From Proteiniphilum saccharofermentans (lineage in GTDB: Bacteria > Bacteroidota > Bacteroidia > Bacteroidales > Dysgonomonadaceae): a stretch of 64,000 nucleotides of DNA. The stretch lies in NCBI RefSeq assembly GCF_900095135.1, contig NZ_LT605205.1, forward strand, positions 558,001-622,000, in the 5' to 3' direction. Under the pieces are notes generated by a model, which had not been told where the DNA came from, made no database searches, and saw only the letters and a list, made by a program, of their open reading frames with translations. Positions 43,142 to 61,978 of this stretch are shown piece by piece. Numbering within the stretch: position 1 is the stretch's first letter; every line of letters starts with the position of its first letter. Position numbers and translations under genes: made by a program.

Positions 43142-45022
43142 TCAATCTAAATCTATACCATAATAGGGTCTGAATTCATCATTTGACTTGTAAAAATAAT
43201 AAACAGATGGGTTAGTGTATGGATTATTGTAGCGATAAAGAGCCTGATTGGCATTCAATTCCGCCTGATTCCAGCCGGGAGTCCATCCAACAAATACGTC
43301 ATCCATATTGAGTGCGTGTTGATAACGTTCACAATTAGTACCCAAATATCCACGATGGATTCCCAATTCCAGCCGTTTGGCGTCGAAGTAATTGATACCC
43401 TCCCCCCAGAATTCAATTCCTTTCTGGAATGTATATTCGTCGATAAAATCTTCAGCAGAAGAGGCCGTGAAGCTGTAAGTGATGTTCCTTGTTTTTATGA
43501 TATCTTCCAATGCCTTGGAAGCTTCGGCTATACCGGAAGTATGAAGAAGAGCTTCGGCTTTCAGAAAATACATCTCCTCCACACGCATAATCGGATAATC
43601 AGTTGCTCCTCCAACAGCGTATGTTCTGTAATCGCCTTTATTAGGACGGAACTTAATATTTACATAAAGCCATGGCCAAGACATAAAACCATACCCTTTA
43701 TTAATGCGTGAACGGATCCAAGAAGGACTACTGTTCAATTTGTATTGATAATTATCAACTCCAAAACCGGAATAGCCGTCACTCCAATCGCTTTGGACAG
43801 AGCTGGAATTGTCTTGCCCCATTGTCCATTTATTATTTACCAAATTACCTTCCGCATCTTTCTCAACCAGGTAAGGTTCTCCTTCTTTCTGGTTAGTCGA
43901 TTCATAAAAGAAATTGGGAGCTAACCATGATTTTTTGCGGAAATCGTAGTCAGAAAGGCGTTCGTACCATTTACGGTCTAATGAACGTCCCACTCGCCAT
44001 CCATAGGCAGAAAAGTTAGTTTCCGTTCCCATGATCATTGCAAGAACGAAGGATCCTGTGGACGAAGCCGTAGTATTACTCTCAGAAATTGATGTAGCCC
44101 ACATCCATGAGTTTTGCGAATTGCGATTGTTAAAACCATTTGTCGGATCAGTCCATTCCGCTTCGGTGAGAGGAGTACATCCTGAGGCGACAATCGCTCG
44201 GTCTGCATACTCGAAAGCGCTTTTCCAGTAATCAATTTCATCTTTGTAAGTTGCTGAAATCTTTACCCGGGAAGCGAGGTTGGTGTAGGCGCGTGCATAG
44301 AGGCCATACACTACGGCAAGGTCAGGCTGTGTCTTATCGGTACGGGTATATCCTGTTAAATAGGTCTCGGCTTTTTGTAAATCACTTAAAATTAGGTCGT
44401 AAATTTCATCTACGGTGGCCCGTGGATTATTGGAAGCCTCCTCTGATGTAGTGGTTTCTGTCACGATGGGTACACCTTTATTTGTGAGATCATTTTCAGG
44501 TTCCACATAGGTATAACGATTATCAGTGGGTTTTTTATATTCCATAATTTGTACTAAATCCATATAATAGAGGGCACGATAAGCGTAACAAATACCAAGG
44601 AACCCTTTTTTGGTGTCATTCAGATCATCAATGTCTATCAATCTAATCACGTCATTCACATTTTTGATATAGCCATAATAGAGGTAAGAGGGGTAAATTC
44701 CGCGATTGGAGCCAGTAGCACTTACAGCCCCGTAGCTCCATGCACCCATTGTATTATAGCCGTTTGCTCCCGTACATATCATCGGAGTTGTAGCATGTTC
44801 AAGCATGGCACGCATACTGCCATATGAGATCGTTTCAATACCTCCGTCTTCGTTGGAATAACCGGCCATGGTAGTATAAATGGAGTTTACCATTCCCTTC
44901 AAAGCGGTTTCGGAAGCCTGTATCTGTGAGTCCAACACATACTCTGTCGGTAATGTTTCTTGTATACAGCTATTAAAAGATAACAGAGCGGCTACTATAA
45001 AAATTATTTGATATTTTTTCAT
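43142..45022 (-). CDS. SusD/RagB-family lipoprotein of the split locus
   Basis: 626 residues with lipobox Cys at residue 19 (LSFNSC). It shows SusD marks: GFLGICYAYRALYYMDLVQIM, the TPR-like helical region, YPIMRVEEMYFLKAEALLHTSG and the late FQKGIEFWGEGINYFDAKRL. It would bind its glycan on the cell surface and close over the SusC channel. It starts 18 bases after the 3' susC fragment, as in a normal susC-susD operon. The frame is intact although its partner is broken, so the interruption is either recent or the fragment is still transcribed from within the insertion. Confidence 0.93.
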   Translation of the reverse strand: MKKYQIIFIVAALLSFNSCIQETLPTEYVLDSQIQASETALKGMVNSIYTTMAGYSNEDGGIETISYGSMRAMLEHATTPMICTGANGYNTMGAWSYGAVSATGSNRGIYPSYLYYGYIKNVNDVIRLIDIDDLNDTKKGFLGICYAYRALYYMDLVQIMEYKKPTDNRYTYVEPENDLTNKGVPIVTETTTSEEASNNPRATVDEIYDLILSDLQKAETYLTGYTRTDKTQPDLAVVYGLYARAYTNLASRVKISATYKDEIDYWKSAFEYADRAIVASGCTPLTEAEWTDPTNGFNNRNSQNSWMWATSISESNTTASSTGSFVLAMIMGTETNFSAYGWRVGRSLDRKWYERLSDYDFRKKSWLAPNFFYESTNQKEGEPYLVEKDAEGNLVNNKWTMGQDNSSSVQSDWSDGYSGFGVDNYQYKLNSSPSWIRSRINKGYGFMSWPWLYVNIKFRPNKGDYRTYAVGGATDYPIMRVEEMYFLKAEALLHTSGIAEASKALEDIIKTRNITYSFTASSAEDFIDEYTFQKGIEFWGEGINYFDAKRLELGIHRGYLGTNCERYQHALNMDDVFVGWTPGWNQAELNANQALYRYNNPYTNPSVYYFYKSNDEFRPYYGIDLD

Positions 45023-45040: not shown

Positions 45041-47542
45041 TTAGAATATCAACGAAATACCACCCGAAAGCGTACGTATTGGGGAGTACAGTTCCGGATT
45101 AGAATACCCTTTCAACGTATAACGAGGATCAAACCCCTGACGTGAGGAGAGATAAAAAAGATTCTCACCGGAGAAATAGATACGGATATTTTCAATATCA
45201 AATTTGCGGGTGAGATAAGATGGTAATGTATATCCCAGATTGATATTCTGTATGTTCAGATAACTTGCGCTGGTGATAAAGCGGTCGGAACGAGGATTTT
45301 GAGAATACTTCTCGGAGTATAGTAAACGTGGAATATCTGTATTTGTGTTAGCAGGAGTCCAAGCTTTAAGTATGTCAAGATGCCAGGTAGTCGCTGTAGT
45401 TCCACCAGTGTGCATCAATGTTTGGTAGGTATAGTCGTATGCTTTCCCTCCTAGCTGAAAATTGGTGTTGATCGAAAAATCAAAGCCGCGATACCTGAGC
45501 GTGGTACCCAAACCGCCATAAAAGGATGGAAGTGCGTCACCTATCAAATAATCAGTAGCCTGGTTGACGTCTTTGGTTGTCTCCTGACCCGTAACATTGC
45601 CTTCTTCATCCACAATATCCTTGTAATAGAGGGATTCCCCCGTCTCAGTGTCCAGGCCGGCATACTTAGGCAAATACCATGTATACAGAGAAAGACCTTC
45701 ACCTACAAAATATTTGTATTTAGATACGAATGAAATATCGAGATTTACATATCCATTATATCCTTCCACATTCATGGACTTGATCGCTTCGGGAAGACTT
45801 AATACCTTGTTTTTTACATGAGAAATATTGAAATTGACACTCCATTGGAGGTCTTTATTATCTATCAATACACCTTGTAAATCAAATTCAACCCCCGAGT
45901 TACGCATGTCTCCCATATTAGTCACATAACTGGTGTAACCAATAGAAGGTGGAGTATTTAAGGAAAAAAGCATATCGGTGGTTTTCCGGTAAAAATAGTC
46001 AATACTACCATTCAGGCGACGATTAAAAAGTTCAAATTCCACTCCGGTATTCCAGTTGGTATTGGTTTCCCATGTAATTGTCTCAGAGCCTTTCTGACGC
46101 CACTGGTAAGCTACTTCGTTATCATTATTGACAATATTGTAGGAATTGGCATAAAGATAATTTCCGATATTATCGTTCCCCTGGGAGCCTACGGATAGTT
46201 TGAGTTTTAAAGAGTTGATCTTAGTCGAATTAAAAAAATCTTCCTTGGAAACAATCCAGGCACCGCCGAGTGACCAGAAATTACCCCAACGATGCTTTTT
46301 GGAGAATCGGGAAGAGGCGTCCCGGCGATAAGATACGGAAGCGTAATATTTTTGATCGTAGTTATACATTCCTCGGAAGAAGTAACCTTCATTATTGTAT
46401 GCCGAAGAATATGAATATGGATTAGAATATTTATTCAGCATAGCAGAGAGCTCATAGACGCCGTCAATGCCAAAATTATATCCGGAAGCGCTTAGAGACT
46501 CATATTTATAGTTATAGTATTCATGACCGAGAAGAGTCGTTATTTCATGTTTATCGAACTGCTTCATATAGTTTAAAAGTTGTTGCATATTATATGAAGA
46601 GGTACGATATGAACCTTTGGATAGGTAACCGTTATTGGAAGAGTCGGTATAGTAATCTACGAAAGGACTAGTTACATAAGTGCTCCGACGGTCATAAATA
46701 TAGCTATTGGCATTCATTGTGAAAGTCAAATCGTCTGTTAATAAGAAATCTACGAAGCCACTAGCCGTATTTGAATTGCCGTTTGTCTCATCATTTCTGT
46801 ATTTGTTGCTGAAAATAGCATTGCCTCCGACACCGCCTGCACGGCTCAAATCATAGTTTCTTGCGAAATCATACATCTTCTCACCCCATTGGTCGATCAT
46901 AATATTTTTGTTTTCATCACGGTAGTAGACCGGATAAACAGGCGCTAAAGTTTTTATTGTACTCCAGATGGTTCCGGTACCGATAGTGCCTTCGGATGTT
47001 TGACCGTATTTATATTTGGTGTAATTAAAGTTCGCTCCGACTCTCATCCACTTTTTTGCCTGATAATCCAGTTTCACGCGCGCTGTCAATCGATCTTGGG
47101 ATGACCCCTCTTGAATTCCTTCCTGACTGAGGTAGCCCAATGACGTATAGTAATTGACACGATTGGATGTTCCTGAGACTGATACATTATATTCCTGACG
47201 GAATCCATTCTGTAAACCTTCTTTCTCCCAATCGTCGGCTTGTAACCAGAATTTTTGGTTGTTGTAGGTATAGAGAGTTCCCATAGTAGCATTGGGATTC
47301 ATCACTCCACCTTGCTGAATAAAATCCTCTCCATTTGGAACCGAATAAACCATATAACCCGGGCCAACACCGCTGGATGAATTGATCAAATGGCTATTTG
47401 CCAAGGAATGCGCATCAGCGGCGGACATATCACCTCCATCGGCTGTTACATAATAGTTATATAACATTTTATAATATGTTTCATAAAACTGTTGAGAGTT
47501 CGTGGTCTCATAATTTCTCAAACCGTTGGAGTTATATCCCCA
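45041..47542 (-). pseudogene. 3' part of a split susC (barrel part)
   Basis: About 833 codons encode the barrel of a SusC-type transporter, from the first strands (YNSNGLRNYETT) through the C-terminal NIQNINLGYTLPSYLT and the terminal LSGGISLIF. The regulatory domain, TonB box and plug are missing. The coding frame continues upstream past the first ATG (47519-47521) to the Trp codon at 47540-47542, then meets the tip of the IS30-family element. The missing 5' part is at 57002-58091, also on the minus strand, and ends with the same Trp codon; the two would give about 1195 residues. Without a signal peptide and plug this fragment cannot work. Confidence 0.88.
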
Positions 47543-48699
47543 CCTAAGTTCAACTTAGAAGTGCAACATCCACGTGTTGTTTTTTGAAATGATTCTTCAC
47601 AACAATCATGAAAAACACCGCGGGGGTTTGCCTAACGGCCGGGGGCGCGCAAGCCCCCGAAGAGAGTCGGACAGCAACATAAAAGAAAAAGGAGACCGAA
47701 GTCTCCCTAAAATTAACTATTATGTTGCTTATGAAAAAATACAAACAGTTAACTTCAGAACAAAGGTACGCGATTTATTTAGGTTTAGAAAACGGTGACA
47801 CCCAGCGGACGATCGCGAGCTTGATAGGTGTCAGTCCTTCAGCGGTGTCCAGGGAGTTGCAGCGCAACAAGGACAAGCGCGGGGGCTACTCGTGGCGACT
47901 GGCCCACGAGATGGCGATGGAGAGAAGGGAACGCCTGCCCGGCAACCGGGCCACCCCGGAATGGATCAAACAAAAGGTGATCCGGCTCGTGCGCAAGGAC
48001 TGGTCGCCCGGGCAAATCAGCGGACACCTGAGAAAGAAGGAGAATATCCGGGTCTCCCACGAGACCATCTACAAGTGGATCCGGGAGGACAAGAAGGCCG
48101 GGGGCGACCTTTACAAGCATTGCCGTCACAGGCTCAAGCACCGCAAGAGACCGGTGGGCTCCGTTAGAGGCATCCCCAACCGCAGGAGCATCCGGGAAAG
48201 GCCCGTGGAGGCCGACGGGAAGCGCTTCGGCGACTTCGAGATGGACACGATGATAGGGGCCGACCAGTCGGAGGCGATACTGACGGTGACGGAAAGGAAG
48301 ACGAACCTCGTGATGATCGGGGAACTGCCCCGCGGAAGGGACTCGAAAGGGTTGGCCAAGGTGCTGTGCCGCATGTTGCTACCCTACAAGGACGTGATAA
48401 GGACGATCACCACGGACAACGGCTTGGAGTTCGCGGCGCACGAACGGATCACGGAGATGCTGGAAGCCCCGGTGTACTTCACCGACCCCTATTCGGCATG
48501 GCAAAAAGGATCGATCGAAAACGCGAACAAGCTCATCCGGCAATACATCCCCAAGGGGGCGTCCTTCAAGGACTATCCACCCGACAGATTGAAGCGGATA
48601 CAGCACAGGCTGAATGAAAGACCGAGGAAAAAATTGGACTTTAACACACCCAAAGTTGAGTTTTACAAACAATTAATGTAAATTGCACTTGCTGCTTGA
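47543..48699 (+). mobile_element. IS30-family insertion sequence
   Basis: About 1.16 kb around one IS30-type transposase gene. The left tip starts CCTAAGTTCAACTTAGAAGTGCAA at 47543, directly at the susC break. The right end is set at 48699 from an imperfect inverted repeat (TCAACTTAGAAGTGCAA at 47550-47566 against the complement of TTGCACTTGCTGCTTGA at 48683-48699; 12 of 17 agree). A GC hairpin (GGGGGC/GCCCCC, 47641-47658) lies ahead of the gene. The right boundary is less certain than the left. Confidence 0.8.
47722..48681 (+). CDS. IS30-family transposase
   Basis: 319 residues from ATG 47722 (or 316 from 47731). The N-terminal HTH is typical of IS30 (YKQLTSEQRYAIYLGLENG, then SPSAVSRELQRN), and the DDE residues are in FGDFEMDTMIG, TTDNGLEF and KGSIENANKLIRQYIPKG. 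The family inserts with 2-3 bp duplications and can form abutted dimers. The gene is clearly richer in G+C than most of the window, which suggests recent arrival. The frame is intact. Confidence 0.95.
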   Translation: MLLMKKYKQLTSEQRYAIYLGLENGDTQRTIASLIGVSPSAVSRELQRNKDKRGGYSWRLAHEMAMERRERLPGNRATPEWIKQKVIRLVRKDWSPGQISGHLRKKENIRVSHETIYKWIREDKKAGGDLYKHCRHRLKHRKRPVGSVRGIPNRRSIRERPVEADGKRFGDFEMDTMIGADQSEAILTVTERKTNLVMIGELPRGRDSKGLAKVLCRMLLPYKDVIRTITTDNGLEFAAHERITEMLEAPVYFTDPYSAWQKGSIENANKLIRQYIPKGASFKDYPPDRLKRIQHRLNERPRKKLDFNTPKVEFYKQLM

Positions 48700-48790
48700 C
48701 TCTGCCTGATCAATATTTATTAAATATTTTTCAATAATAACTCAAATATGGCTATTTTTGTACGAGAAACATTTTTTTTAAAATCATGTC

Positions 48791-50791
48791 ATGCGATTAG
48801 ATTTAAGCTCTTACATCACACTTGATCGAATACCTCAAAGGTATTACAGGCCTGAAAACGATTTTGAAGAATATACGCTCAGCCGCTTCGAAAAGATTCC
48901 GGTTCACATCTATGAAAAGTCGGATCGTGCAGCAAGAAAAATTGCAGCCAATATTGCGAAGCTGATGCTAAAACATCAGAAAGAGGGTAAGAAGTTTATC
49001 CTTGGCGTATCGGGTGGATCTTCTCCCATCCAGGTGTATGAGGAACTGATCAGGATGCACAAGGAGGAGGGTGTCAGTTTCAGTAATCTGGTCGTATTCA
49101 ATATCTACGAGTTCTATCCGGTTACCGAACCCGCCCTGACCAATCTGCAGTTCATCAAGGATAGCTTCCTGAATCACATCGATATTGATCCCGACAACAT
49201 CTACTCGATTGATGCCGATATCGAGAAGGATCTTATCGCTGAAAAATGTGAGGAGTATGAAGAGGCGCTGCATCAATTGGGAGGGTTGGACTACCTGCTG
49301 CTGGGACTGGGCAGCAAGGGAAATATCGGCTTTAACATGCCGGGGAGCAACCTTCACTCACAGACGCGCCTTGTGGTGCTCGACGGAGATTCACGCCGCG
49401 ATATTGCATCCAGCTATGAATCGCTGGACAAGGTGCCTGTCAGTGCCATCACCATGGGTATAGCCGACATGATGCGTGCAAAACGGATCACACTAATTGC
49501 ATGGGGCGAACAGAAGGCCGAAAGCATCAAGCAGATGGTAGAAGGAAGCGTCACTGAATCGGCTCCCGCATCGGTACTGCAGACACATCCCGATGCAGAT
49601 GTCTATATCGACCTGGCAGCCGCAAGCAACCTGACGCGCATCAGCCAACCCTGGCTCGTCACCAACTGTGAATGGACCAGCAAGCTTATCCGCAGGGCAA
49701 TCGTCTGGTTGTGCGGCATTGTGAACAAGCCTATACTGAAACTGACCAACAAGGACTACAACGATTACGGACTGAGCGAGCTCATTACCCTTTACGGTTC
49801 AGCATATAATGTCAATATCAAGATTTTCAACGACCTACAGCACACCATCACCGGATGGCCAGGCGGGAAACCAAATGCCGACGACTCCAACCGTCCCGAA
49901 AGGGCAAAACCCTATCCCAAGCGTGTAATCATCTTCAGCCCCCACCCCGACGACGACGTGATCTCCATGGGTGGCACCTTCCAACGCCTGGTGAACCAGG
50001 GACACGATGTGCATGTAGCCTATCAGACTTCAGGTAATATTGCCGTGGGCGACGAGGAGGTGATCCGTTACCTGTCGGTATTCAAACACCTCATCAGGGA
50101 GTACGACCCTGACAACAAGGCCGCCCTGGATAAATTATCCAGCATACTGCATCACCTTTTCCATGAAAAGGGTTCGGACGATGTGGATATTCCTGAAGTT
50201 CGATTCCTGAAGGGACGGATCCGCAGGGAAGAGGCCCGTTCGGCCGACAGATATGTGGGGCTGCCTCACAGCCATGTCCACTTCCTCGACCTGCCGTTCT
50301 ACGAAACCGGAAAGGTGAAGAAAGATCCCATCTCGGAGAAGGATGTGGTGATTGTCAAGAACTTCATTGAAAGCATCAAACCCCACCAGATATACGTTGC
50401 TGGCGACCTCGCCGATCCGCACGGGACCCACAAAGTGTGTCTCGATGCCATCCTGGCCGCAATAGACCTGATGAAAGATGACGACTGGTTCAAGGATTGC
50501 CGTATCTGGATGTACCGTGGTGCCTGGAAGGAATGGGAAATCGACCACATCGAAATGGCTGTACCGATCTCTCCCGAAGAGCTTCGTCAAAAGAGAAACG
50601 CCATCCTGCGTCACCAGTCACAAATGGAGAGCGCACCTTTCCTCGGTGATGATGAGCGGTTATTCTGGCAACGTTCCGAAGAGCGCAACCGGGCCACGGC
50701 CAACATGTACGACAAACTGGGACTGGCTTCATACGAAGCGATTGAGGCATTTGTAGAATACAAGCCATTACGCGACAACATCGAAGGGTAA
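48791..50791 (+). CDS. NagB-like/PIG-L fusion protein with degenerate deaminase site
   Basis: 666 residues. The first 280 resemble glucosamine-6-phosphate deaminase, the second part (from about residue 375) is a PIG-L/LmbE deacetylase with the metal motif SPHPDDDVISMGGT and the late DPHGTHK. The fusion is a known Bacteroidota architecture. In the NagB part the E. coli FNMDEY motif reads FNIYEFY, and the DGHIAFNEP motif reads KGNIGFNMP, so the residues for ring opening and deamination are changed. The deacetylase site looks complete. It may act on GlcNAc-type substrates, with the NagB part binding rather than converting. It lies at the start of the cargo in the susC insertion, convergent with a response regulator gene. 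Confidence 0.88.
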   Translation: MRLDLSSYITLDRIPQRYYRPENDFEEYTLSRFEKIPVHIYEKSDRAARKIAANIAKLMLKHQKEGKKFILGVSGGSSPIQVYEELIRMHKEEGVSFSNLVVFNIYEFYPVTEPALTNLQFIKDSFLNHIDIDPDNIYSIDADIEKDLIAEKCEEYEEALHQLGGLDYLLLGLGSKGNIGFNMPGSNLHSQTRLVVLDGDSRRDIASSYESLDKVPVSAITMGIADMMRAKRITLIAWGEQKAESIKQMVEGSVTESAPASVLQTHPDADVYIDLAAASNLTRISQPWLVTNCEWTSKLIRRAIVWLCGIVNKPILKLTNKDYNDYGLSELITLYGSAYNVNIKIFNDLQHTITGWPGGKPNADDSNRPERAKPYPKRVIIFSPHPDDDVISMGGTFQRLVNQGHDVHVAYQTSGNIAVGDEEVIRYLSVFKHLIREYDPDNKAALDKLSSILHHLFHEKGSDDVDIPEVRFLKGRIRREEARSADRYVGLPHSHVHFLDLPFYETGKVKKDPISEKDVVIVKNFIESIKPHQIYVAGDLADPHGTHKVCLDAILAAIDLMKDDDWFKDCRIWMYRGAWKEWEIDHIEMAVPISPEELRQKRNAILRHQSQMESAPFLGDDERLFWQRSEERNRATANMYDKLGLASYEAIEAFVEYKPLRDNIEG

Positions 50792-50799
50792 CGGGACAG

Positions 50800-51411
50800 T
50801 CACACCAGTTTCCGCTCCAGCGCTACACGTACCAGAACCGCCGTATTGCGGGCGTTGAGCTTGCACAGGAGCTTCTTGCGGTAATTGTTGATGGTTTCCA
50901 CGGAGAGAAACATCTTTTCCGCAATCTCGGGATTGGTATATCCATCCACGATAAGTCTCAGTAGTGCTCTCTCACGCGGGGTCAGCCAGATCTGCTCAAG
51001 GGATCTTTTGCTCATCAGGCAGTCGATCTCCTCGCACAAGAAGGTCTTGTCGTCTGCAACGGTCTGGATACCCAACAGGATCTCTTCGGGCATGGCATTT
51101 TTAATGACATAGCCCGAAGCTCCGTTTTCAAGCATCTGCCTCACAATGGTGTATTCGGAATAACTGGTAAGTGCCACTATCTTCACCCCCGGGAATCTGT
51201 TTTTTATCGTTTTGCAGAGTTCAATGCCACTACAATCGGGCAGATTGATATCGAGCAGGAGCACCTGAGGCTGGTTAAATCCCAGTTTCCAGAGGCATTC
51301 AGCTCCGGTATAACTCAGATCAACAGTAGTGGCAAAGCCGGAACTGTCGATCAGTTTTTTCAATCCTTCCACCAGGATCTTGTGGTCATCAACGATATGA
51401 ACGGTTATCAT
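50800..51411 (-). CDS. LuxR/NarL-type response regulator
   Basis: 203 residues. The receiver domain has the acidic pair (VDDHK) and the phospho-acceptor Asp54 in LLLDINLPD, with the late Lys in SGYVIKNAMPEE. The C-terminal LuxR HTH is complete (LTPRERALLRLIVDGYTNPEIAEKMFLSVETINNYRKKLL). It would activate or repress target genes when phosphorylated by the histidine kinase encoded one base upstream in the same operon. The targets are unknown; the divergent Yip1/OmpA genes are candidates by position. Confidence 0.95.
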   Translation of the reverse strand: MITVHIVDDHKILVEGLKKLIDSSGFATTVDLSYTGAECLWKLGFNQPQVLLLDINLPDCSGIELCKTIKNRFPGVKIVALTSYSEYTIVRQMLENGASGYVIKNAMPEEILLGIQTVADDKTFLCEEIDCLMSKRSLEQIWLTPRERALLRLIVDGYTNPEIAEKMFLSVETINNYRKKLLCKLNARNTAVLVRVALERKLV

Positions 51412-51412
51412 C

Positions 51413-53338
51413 TTACAAGATCTTTATTTCCACATCCACTTCGGTTCCTTCACCCGGTGCAGAGTGGATATTCATGGAGCCGTTTACTGCGGCCACACGA
51501 GTACGGATATTGTCCAGCCCCGCCCCGGATGTTTCGGCAGCAGTATCAAATCCCTTGCCGTCGTCCTGGACGTTGAGCGAAATCAGGTCGGGTCCGCACA
51601 CCAACTGGACATTGACAGTTTCAGCACCGGAATGTTTCAATGCGTTGTTTATCAACTCCGTCGCAGCACGGTGAATCACCGTCTCTATCTTCTTTTCAAG
51701 CCGTTGCTCTGTTCCAAAGTAATGGAACTTCACATTTCTGAAGTTATTGCAGAAATCGTTCAGGGCACTCTTCAAACCGTAACGGGAAAGTGTTTCGGGC
51801 ATCATGTTGTGTGCCACACGCCGAAGTTCCCTGATCGAAGCGTCCAACATCTCCATCACCTTATTGAACCGTGCCACATCCTCCTCTTCAATGATTACAT
51901 TCTGTTTCATATCAAATAGGTTTAATTTCACAGCCGAGAGCATTCCACCCAGGCCATCGTGAAGGTCACGGGCAAGTCGTGTGCGCTCGGCAGTCTCACC
52001 ACTCATCACAGCCTGGGCCGCAATGAGCTGCTTCTCCTGTTCCAGTTGAATAATCTTCTGCCGGTTCAACTCCTCGTTGGCCTTTATCGTCTTGGTACGC
52101 AAATAGAGTACCAGCAGGAAGAGAAAAAGACCAAAAGTACTCACCAGATAGATAATAAAATGGAGCCGCTTCTCCTTCTCCAGGTTCCGTATGCGGAGCT
52201 CCTTCTTTTCGGTTTGATACTTTTTCTCCAATTCAGCCATCGCCCGTTCGAACTCTGTCGAAGAGCGGATATCGATGAGCCTGCGGTACTTGTCGAAATA
52301 CTCCAGCGTCTCCTGGTGATTGTTCAGAAATATGCCGGCCCGAACCATGTTTGCATAAAGATTGGTGGTCACGTTGGCATCCGTAGTGTCGGTGGCTATC
52401 GCCTCCCGTGCCGAATTCAAACAGTTTACATAATCTTTTTCGTTAAAATAGATATTCGACAAGATATTCAACGAACCGACAATATCGGCACCGTAACCGA
52501 TCTCCTGTGTCAACTTCAACGCTTTCAGCGCATACTCCTTCGCCTTGGCATAATCCTTGAAATCGAGGTAGTAGACCATGGCTATCCCTTGAAGTGCAAT
52601 CGCCTCCGATGACTTGTAACCTCCCTTGTGAAATATTTCGGCCGCCTTTTCCGAATATTCCAGCGAAGACCTAAAATCATTCCGCTTCAGCGCAATCTTG
52701 CTGAATCCCTCATATGCACGACCTATATTGTATAGATCGTTGGCCTCCTCGCTCGCCTTTTCGAGTTCCATATAATACTTCTCGGCCTGGTTCAGATTGA
52801 TCAGGCTGAAGTAAAGGGTTGCAATGTTTCCAAGTAGCGACCGGATCCGGTCCTTGTTATTGTACCTCTCGAATATGGGGAGTGCCTTCAGGTAATAGGT
52901 CAGTGCCTCTTTGTAATCACCCGACACATTGTGCAGGTTACCGATGGCACTGTAAACAGCAGCCTCCAGCTGCTCATCATTGAGGTGGACCGCTTTCTCG
53001 AGCGACCGGTTCAGGTATGCCAGGGCCGTATCCATCTGGCTGTTCATGTAGTAGGCCACACCCAGATTCCGGTAAAGTCTTGCCTCCATGAGCGGATTCT
53101 TGTCCGATTTTGCCCGCTCGATACCCAACAGGGCATACTGTCTTGATTTTCCGAAATCGTGGTCGAGATAACCCCAACTCAAATCATCGCATACCGTCAG
53201 GTACTCCTCCGACGAGAGGCTGTTTCCACTCAACAGGTTCTCTAGGCTATCCAGACTCTGGGCTGTTCCGCAGAGAGATCGCATGAACAACCCGAGAAAC
53301 AGGACGATCAAGCCTCTACTCCTAATGAAAGTCCCCAT
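51413..53338 (-). CDS. TPR-containing sensor histidine kinase (HisKA_3 type)
   Basis: 641 residues from Met at 53338; the longer frame to 53398 adds a non-signal stretch and is less likely. A signal peptide (ending SLCGTAQS) leads to a periplasmic TPR array of about six to seven repeats (residues 50-360, for example DTALAYLNRSLEKAVHLNDE), a coiled coil, one membrane helix (FIIYLVSTFGLFLFLLVLYL), and a NarX/DesK-type kinase with the His in TRLARDLHDGLGGMLSAVKL near residue 458 and the ATP site ELINNALKHSG and DDGKGFD. It partners the adjacent response regulator. The TPRs suggest sensing through protein contact in the periplasm. Confidence 0.93.
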   Translation of the reverse strand: MGTFIRSRGLIVLFLGLFMRSLCGTAQSLDSLENLLSGNSLSSEEYLTVCDDLSWGYLDHDFGKSRQYALLGIERAKSDKNPLMEARLYRNLGVAYYMNSQMDTALAYLNRSLEKAVHLNDEQLEAAVYSAIGNLHNVSGDYKEALTYYLKALPIFERYNNKDRIRSLLGNIATLYFSLINLNQAEKYYMELEKASEEANDLYNIGRAYEGFSKIALKRNDFRSSLEYSEKAAEIFHKGGYKSSEAIALQGIAMVYYLDFKDYAKAKEYALKALKLTQEIGYGADIVGSLNILSNIYFNEKDYVNCLNSAREAIATDTTDANVTTNLYANMVRAGIFLNNHQETLEYFDKYRRLIDIRSSTEFERAMAELEKKYQTEKKELRIRNLEKEKRLHFIIYLVSTFGLFLFLLVLYLRTKTIKANEELNRQKIIQLEQEKQLIAAQAVMSGETAERTRLARDLHDGLGGMLSAVKLNLFDMKQNVIIEEEDVARFNKVMEMLDASIRELRRVAHNMMPETLSRYGLKSALNDFCNNFRNVKFHYFGTEQRLEKKIETVIHRAATELINNALKHSGAETVNVQLVCGPDLISLNVQDDGKGFDTAAETSGAGLDNIRTRVAAVNGSMNIHSAPGEGTEVDVEIKIL

Positions 53339-53554
53339 TTTACTTAACGTTATAATTATTAATATCACAGCGTTGCCCCGGCAAACCAGGATGGTCATTT
53401 CAGGACAAAGTTAAATTCATCCACAGCATTAAAAAACTCCCTTTTGGGTCTATTTTCACCCTTTTTCAACCCCTAATTTTGTATTCGATGAACCGGAAAT
53501 AAAGATCTACTGGAAAAACAGTCAATGAACAAACAAAATTAAAATAAGTGTTTT

Positions 53555-54139
53555 ATGGAAATCATAAGCAAAGTAAAAAACATTTTGTTGAATCCCAAAA
53601 CAGAATGGGAAGTAATATCGGAGAAAAACGACACACACTCAAAAGTATTGGTCTCCTACCTGATCCCCCTGGCACTTATCCCGGCCATTGCGGGATTCAT
53701 TGGATTCGGACTCTTCAGATTCAACCTGATGGGTCTTCACTCGAGTTTTATCGGATTGGGCATCCGGCACGCGGTAACATCGCTCGTCTCCACATTGGGC
53801 GGAGCTTACCTATCGGCCTGGATCATCGCTAACCTTGCCGATAAATTTGGTTCTACGAACAATTTCGACAGGTCATTCTCACTGGTAGCCTATTCCTACA
53901 CGCCAATGTGCGTGGCCGGGATACTCCTGCTGCTACCCAACCTGTCGGTTGTTGCGGCATTGTGCGGACTTTACGGTCTATACCTGCTTTATCTGGGCCT
54001 TGTACCCATGATGAGTACGCCGGAAGAGAAAAAGAGCACCTATTTCATCGTGAGCCTGCTCTGTGTGATAGTGGTCTCGGCCATCCTCTCCACAGTCATG
54101 GGCGCATTGATCCTTTCAACTTCAGGACTCATTTTTTAA
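53555..54139 (+). CDS. Yip1-domain membrane protein
   Basis: 194 residues with about five membrane helices and the Yip1 pattern: an N-terminal amphipathic stretch (VKNILLNPKTEWEVISEKN) and LVAYSYTPMCVAGILLLLP in the core. Bacterial Yip1 proteins have no settled role. It starts 216 bases from the divergent kinase gene and precedes the OmpA-family gene by 14 bases, so the two likely form an operon. The N-terminal PKTEW motif is what I remember as conserved in Bacteroidota members. Confidence 0.88.
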   Translation: MEIISKVKNILLNPKTEWEVISEKNDTHSKVLVSYLIPLALIPAIAGFIGFGLFRFNLMGLHSSFIGLGIRHAVTSLVSTLGGAYLSAWIIANLADKFGSTNNFDRSFSLVAYSYTPMCVAGILLLLPNLSVVAALCGLYGLYLLYLGLVPMMSTPEEKKSTYFIVSLLCVIVVSAILSTVMGALILSTSGLIF

Positions 54140-54153
54140 TTAAACGTAGTGAG

Positions 54154-55431
54154 ATGAAAAAGATCATTATCCTTTTAAGTTTTTGCCTGCTGTTCATTGC
54201 CGGGGCAGATGCGCAAAGTTGGCTGAACAAGCTGGGCAACGCGGCAAAAGAGGCTGCAAAGAATACAGTAGAGCGACGTGTGGAACAGAAAGCGGAAGAG
54301 GTGACCGAAAAAACGCTGAATAAAGCCGAGGAGTCAGTGACAAGAAGAGAGGTAACAGAGGAAGAGGCTGACATGGAGGAGGAAGCGAGCCGGGAGGAGA
54401 CGACCGGGAAGGCAAGGCAGACAGCCTCGCAAAAGCTGGTCAGCACCAGCCAGTACGACTTCGTCCCGGGCGACAAGATCCTCTATTTCGAGGATTTCTC
54501 GCAGGACGCCATTGGTGATTTTCCGGCACTGTGGACGACAGACGGCAGTGGTGAAGTGAAGACGGTCAATATCGCTCCGGGAAAGTGGTTTCACTTGAAC
54601 GGGGATAATGCCTGCTACTGTTACACCCGTCAGATCGATTTTCCCGACAATTTCATCGTGGAGTTCGACATCATTCCCGATGAGGAGTTTGGTCATGGAA
54701 TCCAGTTCACGCTCTACCAGGATGAAGAGGGAAAACCGAAGGAGATGAACGATGGTCTATTTCCCGGTGTGGCGGGACTACACATCGTTGCCAGTCACGA
54801 CCGGTGGGAGACGAATGGCTACAAGGATTCGGAGGATTGGATTACAGGCAGTGCAACCCGGAATCCGGTGATCCGCGAGCAGGAGAACCATGTAATCATC
54901 TGGATACAGAAACGGCGGGTACGTATCTATCACCAGAATGCAAAGGTACTGGACATGCCGACCAATATCTATCCCGACGTGAAGTTCAACCGTATCCGCT
55001 TCTCGGGATGGGACCGCCACAGCGCCCCTCTCGTGTCGAATATCAAGATCACCACGGCGTCGCCCGACACCCGCAGCAAGCTGATCACCGAAGGGAGACT
55101 GATTACCTACGGCATCACATTCGATGTGAACAAGGCCGAGGTGAAAGCCGAATCGTTCGGCACCCTGAAAAACATTGCCGAAGTACTGAAGGAGAATGAA
55201 TCGGTAAGGGTAAAGATTGTGGGTCATACCGACAGTGATGGCGATGATGCCAAAAATCTGGAACTCTCTCAACGTCGTGCAGAATCGGTAAAGAATGAAC
55301 TGGTAACCCGGTTCGGTATCGATGCATCTCGCATGGAGACCGATGGAGCGGGTGAAACCTCTCCCGTGGCACCTAATGATACTCCGGTCAACAAAGCGTT
55401 GAATCGCAGGGTAGAGTTTGTGAAACTGTAA
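54154..55431 (+). CDS. OmpA-family outer-membrane protein
   Basis: 425 residues from the ATG at 54154; the longer open frame starting at 53908 overlaps the Yip1 gene and is rejected. A signal peptide (FIAGADAQS) is followed by a helical, charged region rich in Glu and Lys/Arg (about residues 25-90), then a beta-sandwich-like domain (ILYFEDFSQDAIGDFPALW) and a C-terminal OmpA peptidoglycan-binding domain (FDVNKAEVKAES, VKIVGHTDSDGD, LSQRRAESVKNEL, NRRVEF). The membrane part is not an eight-strand barrel. It probably links the outer membrane to peptidoglycan. Two further small secreted-protein genes follow in the same direction. Confidence 0.9.
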   Translation: MKKIIILLSFCLLFIAGADAQSWLNKLGNAAKEAAKNTVERRVEQKAEEVTEKTLNKAEESVTRREVTEEEADMEEEASREETTGKARQTASQKLVSTSQYDFVPGDKILYFEDFSQDAIGDFPALWTTDGSGEVKTVNIAPGKWFHLNGDNACYCYTRQIDFPDNFIVEFDIIPDEEFGHGIQFTLYQDEEGKPKEMNDGLFPGVAGLHIVASHDRWETNGYKDSEDWITGSATRNPVIREQENHVIIWIQKRRVRIYHQNAKVLDMPTNIYPDVKFNRIRFSGWDRHSAPLVSNIKITTASPDTRSKLITEGRLITYGITFDVNKAEVKAESFGTLKNIAEVLKENESVRVKIVGHTDSDGDDAKNLELSQRRAESVKNELVTRFGIDASRMETDGAGETSPVAPNDTPVNKALNRRVEFVKL

Positions 55432-55442
55432 AAAAAATCATC

Positions 55443-56208
55443 ATGAGAAGATTTGTGATATTGACTCTCTGTCAGCTGATCCTCTCCTGTACGTTTGCAA
55501 CGAATCTCCTGGATACAATCAGGGCTGTTGTCCCGGACGATTCCAAGCTGCCTCATCAGGATCTGAACACCCTGGAGGATCAGTTGAGCCAAGCCCAAAT
55601 GGTGCAGCAGATGCTTGGCGGTGTTCGAGATGCAGTTAATCTGATTGAACAGCATAAGTTAGGGGATGGATCGGTTTTGGTATTCGAAGTGCCGTCGGAG
55701 TTACTGAATATTCTACCGGAAGGGTGTCGCACGGTAGGCAGGGCGAGCTGCATTCTCTATCCCCTTTTTGCCTCTATCAATTTTGATACGTTGACCGGTA
55801 GAAATGACGGCAAGGGGTACAACTTTACCGTCTCGCTCAATATCTATAATTCGGAAAGCGGCGACGAAGAGGTTAAAGCCCGGACAGAAATGGAGAGCAT
55901 GGTATTGTCCATGAAGCTCGAAAAGATAAAAAAAAAGGATCCATCCAAATCATGACGGGAAGCTGTCGGATATCAGGATCCGGGAGTGGGGTGCCGGCGG
56001 AAGCTACAGGTATACTGCGGAATGGGACGGAAAAGAGATGGTGCGTTACTCCAGCTACTACACGGGACGGGTGGAGGATATCTTCTTCACCCTGGAGGCG
56101 GAGGGCGATGACATTGCGGTTCCGCAGATGGTAGTCGAGAAGCTGGTCTCGCTTGCCAGAGAAAGCATGAAATATAAATCACTGAAAAGTAGAATTGTAA
56201 AAGAGTGA
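55443..56208 (+). pseudogene. Secreted protein gene interrupted by a frameshift at an A9 run
   Basis: The ATG at 55443 opens 170 codons with a signal peptide (LILSCTFATN) and ends at 55955, just after a run of nine A (55928-55936). In the +1 frame, coding sense continues from about 55939 to a stop at 56206-56208, with clear protein character (REWGAGGSYRYTAEWDGKEM, VVEKLVSLARESMKYKSLK). Removing one A joins both parts into a protein of about 254 residues. The joined protein would be periplasmic and of unknown family. The break may be a real mutation, a phase-variable tract, transcript slippage or an assembly error. The gene lies between the OmpA and lipoprotein genes and its 3' end is five bases from the next ATG. 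Confidence 0.75.
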
Positions 56209-56213
56209 CAATC

Positions 56214-56873
56214 ATGAAAAAGGTAATATCCATTTTATTGTTGGCCCTGCTTCTGGGCGGCTGCTCAGGAGAGAAGAGGGGGCAAGATACCGGAGAAGAA
56301 AAGTTATCGGTAAAAGAGCTGCAAGCGGATGCTGGCAAGAGAAGATACCCCATCGAGCAGGGAATCATACGCTCCACTTCCAAGGCAATGGGCATGAAGA
56401 TGGAGATCGTCACCTATTTCGATAAGTGGGGCGAGTGGGAGGCAATCGAGACAACAGTACCGATGGAGGTGATGGGAGAGGATTACTCCTCCCACACGCT
56501 GGAGATCATCAAAGGGGACGATCACTGGAAAATCGACCTGGACAAGAAGAGCGGTGAACATTATAAGCAGACCCGGGCAATCAATCCGCTGGGGGTGGAT
56601 GTCGAGAGCTTGACAGACGAGTTGCTGGGAAAGATGAAGATGGAAGATCTCGGAGAGGTGAAATTTCTGGGCTATAAATGCCGCAAGATGCGCATAAGGA
56701 GCGATAAGGGAACGGAAGTGGAATATGTGATGTGGGGCAACGTGATGATGAAGATGGAGGGTGAGACGATGGGCATAGCCACCTCTTCGGAAGTTATATC
56801 GGTGGAAGAGGTGGCACCTCCGCAAGAGAAATTTGAAATACCGAGCGATATTGTCATTACTGAATCGGAATAA
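56214..56873 (+). CDS. Lipoprotein with GYKC-type (DUF4412-like) domain
   Basis: 219 residues from the ATG at 56214, with a lipobox Cys at residue 17 (LLLGGC). The mature part is one beta-rich domain with LGYKCRKMRIRSDKGTEVEY and a late Met-rich strand (NVMMKMEGETMG). A similar GYKC-plus-strand motif occurs in the N-terminal half of the PNGase F protein at 59628. I recall this from DUF4412/GLPGLI-type periplasmic proteins; their function is unknown. It is the last gene of the rightward group in the insertion, followed by a GC-rich hairpin. Confidence 0.7.
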   Translation: MKKVISILLLALLLGGCSGEKRGQDTGEEKLSVKELQADAGKRRYPIEQGIIRSTSKAMGMKMEIVTYFDKWGEWEAIETTVPMEVMGEDYSSHTLEIIKGDDHWKIDLDKKSGEHYKQTRAINPLGVDVESLTDELLGKMKMEDLGEVKFLGYKCRKMRIRSDKGTEVEYVMWGNVMMKMEGETMGIATSSEVISVEEVAPPQEKFEIPSDIVITESE

Positions 56874-56883
56874 TCTCCTGCCT

Positions 56884-56909
56884 CTCCCGGGAGCCGCAAC
56901 TCCCGGGAG
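56884..56909 (+). terminator. GC-rich hairpin after the lipoprotein gene
   Basis: CTCCCGGGAG occurs twice (56884-56893 and 56900-56909). Each copy is palindromic and the two pair with a six-base loop. No T-run follows, so termination is less certain than the hairpin itself. Confidence 0.6.
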
Positions 56910-57001
56910 CGACCGGCGGAAGCAAAATGGATGACCTTGGATCCACCGTTCTGGAGACGGAAACAGTCTGTTTTTCGCACTGTAACGAGATGATTCGGAG
57001 G

Positions 57002-58091
57002 CCCATTTGGAATCGAAGGTAATTTTTGCATCCCCACTTGTACCTCGTTTGGTGGTAATCATGATTACACCGTTTGCACCGCGTGCTCCATAAAGAGCAT
57101 TTGAAGCGGCATCTTTCAGTACAGTCATCGATTCAATATCGCTTGAATTAATCAAATTGAGGTCTCCGTCGAAAGGCATCCCGTCCACCACAATTAAAGG
57201 CTCCGTATCGGAAGAAATAGAACCGAATCCGCGAATTGTTATAGAAGGGGAACTGCCTAATTGAGACGAAGAGTTGGACAACTGTACACCGGCTACGCGT
57301 CCGGCCAACGCACTGGCGGGATTACTCACCTGCGCTTTAACCAGATCATCCGATTTCATGACACCGGCAGAACCTGTAAAGGCTTCTTTTTTCATCTTGC
57401 CGAAAGCAACAACCACTACTTCATCTAGCGATTTCAGGTCTTCCTGTAAAACGATTTCTAAAATTGTCCTTCCTGTCGTAGGAATATCTTGTGTTATGTA
57501 TCCAATATAGGAAACATGAAGTACGGCATTATTTTCCACACTTAAGGTGAAATTCCCATCGATATCCGTTACCGTACCGTTGGTAGTGCCTTTCTCCATA
57601 ATGTTCGCCCCAATAATGGCTTCACTGTTATTATCCCTGACTTTTCCGGTAATTGTCTTTTTCTGTTGCTGTACTTTTTCTTCTAGGATAATAGTGCGGA
57701 TTTCCGAGACATCGATTTTTTTCTCTTCCTTGTAAAGAACCACTTGTTTATCTAATATCCTATATTCCAGTCCTGTATCGGAAAGCAGGTTATCCATAAT
57801 ATTACTGATGGATCGGCTGCTTACACGGATATTTACTTTTTTCTCCGTAGCGTCTTCGGTATTGTCAGCAAAGACAAACACAAGTCCGCTCTGCTTCTCT
57901 ATTTCTTTACAAGCCTCTTTTATGGTTGTCGATTTTAAATGAAGCGAGAGTTTCGCTTCCTGAGAATGGCTTGTGGCTGCGTGAGAAAAGACAATGCAGA
58001 AAAAGAACAAGAATACTGTTATTCTCATAATTTTTAGAATGCGTTGGATATAATTGGAATTTTTTTCTTTCCCAATAGATTGTTTATTCAT
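57002..58091 (-). pseudogene. 5' part of a split susC (STN, regulatory and plug part)
   Basis: 363 codons from the ATG at 58091 to the Trp codon at 57003-57005. Order: signal peptide (FSHAATSHSQ), STN domain (LHLKSTTIKEACKEIEKQSG), carboxypeptidase-like regulatory domain (GTTNGTVTDIDGNFTL), TonB-box-like EVVVVAFG, and plug (ITIRGFGSISSDTEPLIVVD, SMTVLKDAASNALYGARGAN). After KITFDSKW the frame runs on into 233 meaningless codons antisense to the lipoprotein gene. The barrel is at 45041-47542. The STN domain identifies it as a signalling transporter working with the FecR and ECF sigma proteins upstream. The gene is 121 bases downstream of fecR. Confidence 0.88.
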
Positions 58092-58212: not shown

Positions 58213-59403
58213 TTAAGAGAGTTCATTGGTAATAAGGATTTTATTTTCAGTTCTCTGATAGGACGTGGAAGATAGTAAACTTATAATCGTCATAACATTA
58301 TCCAGATTATCAGATAAATATATTTTCCCCGTACAAGTCCGTTTTTGCAGGTTTATATCATTTTCAAAATCGAACGAAAGGTTGTAATATCTGCCGATCT
58401 GCTGCAACACTTCGGTCATTGGTGTCTTGTCGAAAGAAAGATAGCCGTCCTTCCAACTGATGAATTGATTTACATCGACTTTTTGTGTATCGAATGTACC
58501 GCTTCCGGAATAAACGGCCTTTTCGCTAGGTGTTATAAACAATTCCTTGTGATCTTTCGATTGCAGGCTGACACTCCCTTCCACCAATACTACCGATTGC
58601 GGTGAACCGGAATAAGTTGAAATATTGAATTTGGTTCCATATACTTTTACGTTGAAATCACCGGTCTGTACGTAGAAGGGTTTTTCTTTGTTGTGGGCGA
58701 CTTCGATATACATCTCTCCCGATGCCAGACGTATTTCCCGTTTTTTACCGCTGAATTGTGCCGGAAATTCGAGTACTGATCCGGAATTGAGCCACACCCT
58801 ACTACCATCAGCCAGAGTGAGTGTAGAGCGCTTACCATATGGGATAACCAGCGAATTAAGCTTATCCCGGTCAATTTTCACTTTACTGGTCTCATTATTG
58901 GCCTGTACAATTTCAGCTGTTCCTTCTTCATTGAGCGTTACCTCTACATCATTTTTAAATATAATAGCTTCTCCACTTGTAATAAGCTGAATATCCTCAT
59001 TATTCAACAGTTCTCCTGTAATAAGTTCTTTATCCGGAATGTCGATGGATACCGAAGATGGATAAAACAGTGTAATTCCAATAATAATCAATGCAATCGC
59101 AGCTGCAGAGGCTGATGTATACCAAAAAAGTTTGCGCTGCTTTATCTTTTTCTCTTGCCGGATGGTCCTCTGAATTTTTTCAAGGAGCACTGTGCGTTCA
59201 TTCTCACTTAAATCGCTTTCATTTAGCCCTATCTTTTTGAGATAAGTAATTGCCTTTTGTATATTTTTTTTGTGCTCAGCGTGGTGTCCGATGAAACTTT
59301 GCCAGTAGATATCTAAATTTTCATTGGGCATCAGTTGCCATTGGATGAATTTTTTATCTTTTAAAAAATCCGTATAGCTGGTATAAGTATTGTCAGTATT
59401 CAT
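58213..59403 (-). CDS. FecR-family anti-sigma factor
   Basis: 396 residues: a cytoplasmic N-terminal region (about 1-95) that would hold the sigma factor, one membrane helix (ASAAAIALIIIGITLFYP), a periplasmic FecR domain (VIPYGKRSTLTLADGSRVWLNSGS, VEGSVSLQS) and a C-terminal DUF4974/STN-contact domain (LSFDKTPMTEVLQQIGRYYNLSF). It would relay binding of a substrate at the STN domain of SusC to the ECF sigma factor. The matching sigma gene is 2 kb upstream at 61382-61978, separated by the oppositely oriented PNGase F gene, whereas such pairs are normally adjacent. The frame is intact. Confidence 0.94.
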   Translation of the reverse strand: MNTDNTYTSYTDFLKDKKFIQWQLMPNENLDIYWQSFIGHHAEHKKNIQKAITYLKKIGLNESDLSENERTVLLEKIQRTIRQEKKIKQRKLFWYTSASAAAIALIIIGITLFYPSSVSIDIPDKELITGELLNNEDIQLITSGEAIIFKNDVEVTLNEEGTAEIVQANNETSKVKIDRDKLNSLVIPYGKRSTLTLADGSRVWLNSGSVLEFPAQFSGKKREIRLASGEMYIEVAHNKEKPFYVQTGDFNVKVYGTKFNISTYSGSPQSVVLVEGSVSLQSKDHKELFITPSEKAVYSGSGTFDTQKVDVNQFISWKDGYLSFDKTPMTEVLQQIGRYYNLSFDFENDINLQKRTCTGKIYLSDNLDNVMTIISLLSSTSYQRTENKILITNELS

Positions 59404-61381: not shown

Positions 61382-61978
61382 TTATTTAAGGGTAAGAAGA
61401 AAATAGGAGTGGTAACCCAGAAGAAAAAAAATACCGAATTTCTCCCGAAGGCTGAGAATAGCTTTAGATACCAGTTTACGACAGCCATGTACCGAAATTT
61501 GAAGTAATTCGGCAATTTGTGGATAATCGTAACCCTGTACATAACGAAGATAGATTATTTCCCGCTGTCGGTCGGTAAGAGAATTGAGCATCTGTTCAAT
61601 ACCTGTTTTTATCTGCATCTGTTCCTCTTCTTCGATCATCAGGTCTTCTATATTCACTTGTATATTGAAAGGTATTTCCTGTAGAAGATCTATATTTTCC
61701 AGGTCAATATGCTCCCTTTGATTTTTATGGATATCCAGAAGCCTGTTCTTCAGTGATCTGAAAAGGTAGAATTTAATATTGGATATATTGTCCAACTTAT
61801 TGCTGTCGGTAGTGATTTTTATAAAAATATCGTGAATGGCATCTTTCACGATCTCTCTGGCAAAGCCTAAATAACAACCATATGTGAATAGGTCATCCAC
61901 ATACAGGGTATAAATTGAAGCAATATCTTTCTCTCTTTTCACCAACTTGGAAGGATCCCTCATATAATTGAAATGCAA
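61382..61978 (-). CDS. ECF sigma factor of the glycan locus
   Basis: 198 residues of the Bacteroidota-expanded ECF type: region 2 with YTLYVDDLFTYGCYLGF and KDAIHDIFIKI, region 4 with NSLTDRQREIIYLRYVQGYDYPQIAEL and an HTH ending CRKLVSKAILSLRE. It would direct transcription of the susC operon once released by the FecR protein. It converges with the PNGase F gene across 11 bases. Its separation from fecR by that gene is unusual. Confidence 0.94.
   Translation of the reverse strand: MHFNYMRDPSKLVKREKDIASIYTLYVDDLFTYGCYLGFAREIVKDAIHDIFIKITTDSNKLDNISNIKFYLFRSLKNRLLDIHKNQREHIDLENIDLLQEIPFNIQVNIEDLMIEEEEQMQIKTGIEQMLNSLTDRQREIIYLRYVQGYDYPQIAELLQISVHGCRKLVSKAILSLREKFGIFFLLGYHSYFLLTLK

Follow-up and report, generated by a model that had tools for sequence, protein, structure and literature searches.

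Transfers of genes by insertion sequences (IS) have mostly been noticed because the genes carried conferred resistance. Among such transfers, the single-ended Tn6330 variants, which consist of mcr-1 and one copy of the IS30-family element ISApl1, have been described as ~2.6 kb long, mostly plasmid-borne and flanked by 2-bp duplications, and have been read as products of the decay of a composite transposon (PMC5821093). Here we describe a 9,460-bp insert that splits a susC gene of Proteiniphilum saccharofermentans, located in a stretch of 64,000 nucleotides of contig NZ_LT605205.1, from 558001 to 622000 (hereafter the window, whose positions are used unless a genome is named). The insert occupies 47543-57002 between two copies of CCA, and it is made up of a complete 1,164-bp IS30-family element and 8,296 bp of foreign chromosomal DNA (Table 1). 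A first-pass annotation, made from the letters of the window and its open reading frames, had proposed one susC gene split into two halves by a 9.46-kb IS30-linked insertion, with the IS tip as the left junction and eight gene-sized units in between. This outline was borne out: the insert is bounded by CCA and contains the IS, which occupies 47543-48706 and thus forms the left junction, and the eight units are the transposase and seven genes.

Comparison with relatives confirmed that a single susC gene is interrupted by the insert. The two halves were searched separately and never joined, and nine relative loci were chosen from matches to one or both halves, not at random. Both halves were found inside one gene at all nine loci retrieved, as judged by positions and open frames; at six of them (L094, L095, L096, L099, L100 and L101), no base separates N-half residue 362 from C-half residue 1. 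The comparison with uninterrupted loci that the annotation had proposed thus showed the halves to be contiguous in one gene in these six cases. In L092 and L093, a short stretch at the cut remains unaligned and exceeds that of the window by one and two codons, respectively, and L097 gave a weak C-half match (25%, residues 390-833). The closest locus, L099 of genome G014, stops at a contig end after 130 C-half residues, and reads DARVTFDSKWGYNFKGVRNYETVN where the window has DAKITFDSK and WGYNSNGLRNYETTN. The N half shares 50-64% identity with the nine loci, and the C half 25-51%. The annotation had also considered that the halves might belong to different susC genes. Over 61 genomes, the best match does differ by half (G010, 52%, for the N half; G031, 45%, for the C half), but the G031 gene (L094) matches the N half as well, in an alignment that starts at residue 147 and reaches right to the cut, and therefore the halves need not derive from two susC genes. 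No same-species empty site, that is, an uninterrupted susC, was found among the relatives compared.

The interrupted gene has the features of an STN-bearing SusC/RagA transporter: TIGR04056 extends over the two halves (the N half alone scored 315.8 bits, under the cut-off of 368.25, and the C half scored above it), an STN domain is present, fecR and a sigma factor gene adjoin, and susD follows. The cut point is a Trp codon, CCA being the reverse complement of TGG, and the susC bases flanking the insert show no sign of loss. The open frame of the N half extends 232 codons into the insert. Because this frame makes no sense as SusC beyond the plug and continues into the insert for those 232 residues, the transport function and, presumably, signaling to FecR would be lost, as judged from the domain content. 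The susD gene beside it was correctly annotated as intact, with a complete open frame and both of its Pfam families.

The 8,296-bp part of the insert was searched for in 101 genomes of the family, including that of the host (G000). G101, taken as Petrimonas mucosa ING2-E5A, was the sole other genome with a near-identical block, which differs by 11 mismatches and one gap over 8,296 aligned positions. The annotation had suggested looking for the block elsewhere without susC flanks. In G101, it stands in its native place; a 460-aa gene precedes nagB, the gene for a glucosamine-6-phosphate deaminase-like protein, a 145-aa gene follows the cluster, and no IS was found at this place. In four other genomes of the donor's genus (G109, G102, G110 and G106), most of the block was recovered in one match at 75-77% identity, and the region is collinear with that of G101. 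Homology continues past the left edge of the block in all four of these genomes; at the right edge it resumes in G109 and G102 and was not seen in G110, and the G106 piece is too short. The host's own orthologous nagB locus (C1:2189000-2199000, with native nagB at G000:C1:2192975) is only 69-73% identical to the donor stretch and lacks the six-gene cluster. When the host genome was searched at the DNA level for a second copy of the block, only nagB was found, at 73%, and the sensor-kinase/OmpA/lipoprotein cluster was not found again; a plasmid collection searched with the block gave one record only, covering 5% of the query at 71%. Laboratory biogas reactors are the source from which both species were described (PMC5684752). 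Because the block shares 99.86% identity with a chromosome from a different genus, compared with 69-73% for the host's own orthologous locus, these data indicate a recent inter-genus transfer, from Petrimonas to Proteiniphilum, of seven genes beside one IS copy.

The annotation had left a choice between such a recent event and a reversible switch, in which susC would be toggled by excision of the block. The recent event is favored by the near identity to a foreign chromosome. The sole point in favor of the switch is that susC seems to have kept all its bases on either side of the insert. Against it, the families found for the block's genes include no site-specific recombinase, the repeat is only 3 bp and the DNA is recent and foreign; we regard the switch as scarcely credible.

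The high identity may also be considered in terms of an assembly artefact or cross-contamination between the two type strains, which were both sequenced in one study and by the same protocol, based on 8-kb mate pairs, with gaps closed in silico (PMC5684752). The 12 differences between the window and G101 were compared with two to three other Petrimonas genomes, G106 giving no states: G101 is derived at three, the window is derived at five and four are undecided. Seven of the substitutions are coding, six of them protein-changing and one silent. Four of the five window-derived changes alter proteins, the fifth is non-coding, none is silent, and one further indel breaks a gene, a pattern that read errors at low depth would likewise produce; relaxed selection on newly gained DNA may be another reading of this bias. 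However, derived states fall on both sides, whereas read errors would be window-derived only, which points to a sister lineage as the source rather than to the G101 strain read with errors; in addition, 8 of the 11 substitutions are transitions. Moreover, the junction between IS and donor DNA could not have come from G101 reads, since no IS adjoins the block on the left in G101, and the right junction coincides with the duplication of the IS. An artefact is thus held to be very unlikely.

The boundaries of the insert can be placed exactly. Donor DNA begins one base past the right tip of the IS and stops one base ahead of the right CCA. The IS has CCA at its left edge and TGA at its right edge, and hence has no duplication of its own; the partner CCA is separated from the IS by the Petrimonas DNA, whose far edge it adjoins. 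A duplication of the usual length for this IS (CCA at 47540 and 57003) therefore encloses an IS tip and a far end, the arrangement of a single-ended unit. The annotation had noted CCCA at both junctions. The repeat is indeed present, but it is best read as a 3-bp CCA, because seven of the ten full-length IS copies in the host genome have duplications of that length; the extra C could be the donor's or the recipient's. These ten copies, taken from 15 loci after five partial or distant ones were left out, comprise four of the window's IS, three of them with the duplication, and six of a sister IS with 83-84% identity, four of them with it. The inverted tips of the window's IS share the core AAGTGCAA, over which the two tips align. 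Copies of this IS are reported at 100% identity in both the host and G101, and the host carries three further copies of the same length. Of two internally shortened copies in G101, one has a duplication and one does not, and one G010 copy has it.

Because the ends are exact and the duplication has the length usual for this IS, it is highly probable that the unit, the IS together with its neighboring DNA, was transposed as a whole in an IS30-borne manner. In a Petrimonas mucosa-like donor, the predicted state is an IS30 copy directly before TGATCAATATT, upstream of nagB and 84 bp from it. Donor DNA with the IS would then have reached Proteiniphilum by some route, and the transposase may have taken as ends the left tip of the IS and a non-IS sequence 8.3 kb past its right tip, that is, by single-ended transposition. 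It would have inserted the whole 9,460-bp unit into susC with duplication of 3 bp. As a result, one signaling SusC transporter would have been lost, and an extra nagB and the sensor-kinase/OmpA/lipoprotein cluster gained. Within IS30-borne transposition, we give an even chance to such single-ended use of a surrogate far end, which is favored because the junction is clean.

Decay of a composite, in contrast, is favored because of the literature. Two IS30 copies would have flanked the Petrimonas segment and moved with it into susC, duplicating CCA, and the right IS would later have been removed by abortive transposition. In the ISApl1 report, single-ended ISApl1/mcr-1 forms arise by losing about one IS length at joints of 1-4 bp (PMC5821093). 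The junction of the present insert, GGAGGC followed directly by CCA, is readable as a 1-bp joint, and G101 holds 29 full or partial matches to the IS. However, no trace of a right IS was seen, the left copy being the only IS match in the insert, and one extra event would be required. Furthermore, the junction coincides with the duplication to the base, with no nucleotide added or lost, whereas ragged junctions are reported for the published cases of decay (PMC5821093). We consider this route, which forms part of the high probability given to IS30-borne transfer, to be less likely than single-ended use.

Several lines of evidence weigh against IS30-borne transposition with single-ended use. Most single-ended forms of ISApl1 are read as decayed two-IS composites, and a test of a pseudo-end is cited as having failed, with the reservation of very low frequencies (PMC5821093). 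In the present case, the far end is no more similar to the IS tips than expected by chance, which counts against its easy recognition: its gapped score was equaled by 8.3% of 21,001 donor positions, and its ungapped score by 97.8%. A 3-bp match alone is expected by chance once in 64, and the duplication rule is not strict, in that a 3-bp duplication accompanies only one of the four full-length copies in G101. Of the three duplication-less full-length G101 copies (L196, L208 and L212), L196 and L212 were compared with relatives, and no second single-ended case emerged.

Homology-facilitated illegitimate recombination is a further mechanism by which such a structure could form: an IS30 copy already present in susC would anchor incoming Petrimonas DNA that carries the same IS, and the other end would be joined without homology. 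The 1.16 kb of near-identical IS would serve as an anchor, but the non-homologous joint would need to fall by chance on the first base of the right duplication of the IS, with no susC base lost, and the donor has no CCA at the joint. This mechanism is accordingly regarded as improbable.

Table 1. Features of the insert, of the susC locus and of related IS copies (window positions, except for the G101:C1 copies)
Feature	Position	Strand	Remarks
susD	43142-45022	-	open frame complete; PF14322, PF07980
susC C-terminal half	45041-47542	-	barrel; TIGR04056 model positions 262-981
Left target site duplication CCA	47540-47542	.	reverse complement TGG, Trp codon of susC
IS30-family element, complete, 1164 bp	47543-48706	+	tips CCTAAG...CTCTGCC
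IS30 family transposase, 319 aa	47722-48681	+	open frame complete; NF033563, 256 bits vs cut-off 80
Petrimonas chromosomal DNA	48707-57002	.	99.855% identical to G101:C1:1667767-1676061 (minus strand)
Glucosamine-6-phosphate deaminase-like / PIG-L protein (nagB, second copy)	48791-50791	+	NF002557, PF01182, PF02585
LuxR-type response regulator	50800-51411	-	Pfam; protein identical to that of G101
TPR sensor histidine kinase (HisKA_3)	51413-53398	-	Pfam; same length as in G101
Yip1-domain membrane protein	53555-54139	+	Pfam; identical to that of G101
Protein with C-terminal OmpA domain	54154-55431	+	Pfam; start at MKKIIILL
170-aa frame, frameshifted form of 254-aa G101 gene	55443-55955	+	
Lipoprotein-like protein	56205-56873	+	weak DUF4412; likely ATG start at 56214
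Right target site duplication CCA	57003-57005	.	donor reads ACAAAA here, so CCA is recipient sequence
susC N-terminal half	57003-58091	-	STN, CarboxypepD_reg, Plug (Pfam); TIGR04056 model positions 1-217
fecR regulator	58213-59403	-	open frame complete; PF04773, PF16344
Extracytoplasmic function (ECF) sigma factor	61382-61963	-	open frame complete; TIGR02937, PF08281
Internally deleted IS copies in G101:C1	624606-625286, 902010-902691, 985719-986400, 2008576-2009257, 3709249-3709931		

Six of the seven cargo genes have the same length as in G101, and the seventh is frameshifted, with 170 residues compared with 254. No Pfam family was found for this 170-aa frame, and its frameshift may represent post-transfer decay or a sequencing error in a base run. 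In Petrimonas (L191/L192), the six-gene sensor/OmpA/lipoprotein cluster lies between nagB and the 145-aa gene, and the native locus of the host (L047) is without it; similar clusters are present at other places in several Proteiniphilum relatives. The right edge of the block was considered as the boundary of an element and rejected: it falls within 2 bp of the point at which homology resumes in G109 and G102, but this point lies upstream of a conserved gene whose start is 28 bp further along.

Among the copies of the IS in G101, the five listed in Table 1 have one common internal deletion, with approximately element positions 427-901 missing, and a sixth internally deleted copy (1097169-1097724) is also without the left end. 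These copies are a non-autonomous family in Petrimonas mucosa that resembles miniature inverted-repeat transposable elements (MITE-like). Two other G101 copies were examined as single-ended cases and rejected: L212 is a simple insertion, its two flanks being neighbors in all four relatives, and L196 abuts another repeated element, with its left flank unmatched in the four relatives. Two full-length host copies of the sister IS have no 3-bp duplication (G000:C1:3328893-3330055, L007; 1451983-1453162, L010); in the open reading frame map of L007, on which this reading is based, the frame on the right continues into the IS, as would be seen if a deletion or rearrangement linked to the IS had taken place. 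Another copy of the sister IS, with a CAT duplication, is located at G000:C1:624024-625198, ~2 kb to the right of the window.

The present insert carries ordinary chromosomal DNA, with genes for a sugar-phosphate deaminase and a sensor cluster, and the recent inter-genus gain was apparently paid for with one SusC signaling transporter. Since sequence is available for the recipient gene, the duplicated target and a donor locus free of the IS, the event can be reconstructed almost base by base, and it provides a natural case on which single-ended IS30 transposition can be tested. More tentatively, and at somewhat less than an even chance, we suggest that a lone IS30-family copy can carry more than 8 kb, with seven genes, between genera by means of a surrogate far end without clear inverted-repeat similarity; lone copies, and not just composites, would thus spread ordinary genes among biogas Bacteroidales. 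No published report of this Petrimonas-Proteiniphilum IS30 transfer was found in the literature searched, and the match found for the IS30 family and one-ended transposition concerns Tn3-derived elements.

As in the single-ended ISApl1-mcr-1 variants of Tn6330, one IS30-family copy bounds a foreign segment and a short target duplication is present (PMC5821093). Unlike those variants, the present unit comprises 8.3 kb of ordinary chromosomal genes that moved between genera, with a 3-bp duplication and a known IS-free donor locus. As in a simple IS insertion into a SusC-type gene, a TonB-dependent receptor gene is disrupted; unlike in such an insertion, the IS brings 8.3 kb of donor chromosome with it. 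The unit is also similar to ISEcp1-type capture with surrogate right ends, in that one IS tip and a poorly conserved far end would carry the neighboring genes, although ISEcp1 is not known to be an IS30-family element. IS-borne transfer is already known; what is new is a clean example of a lone IS30 moved together with 8.3 kb between genera, in which donor, recipient and duplication are all readable.

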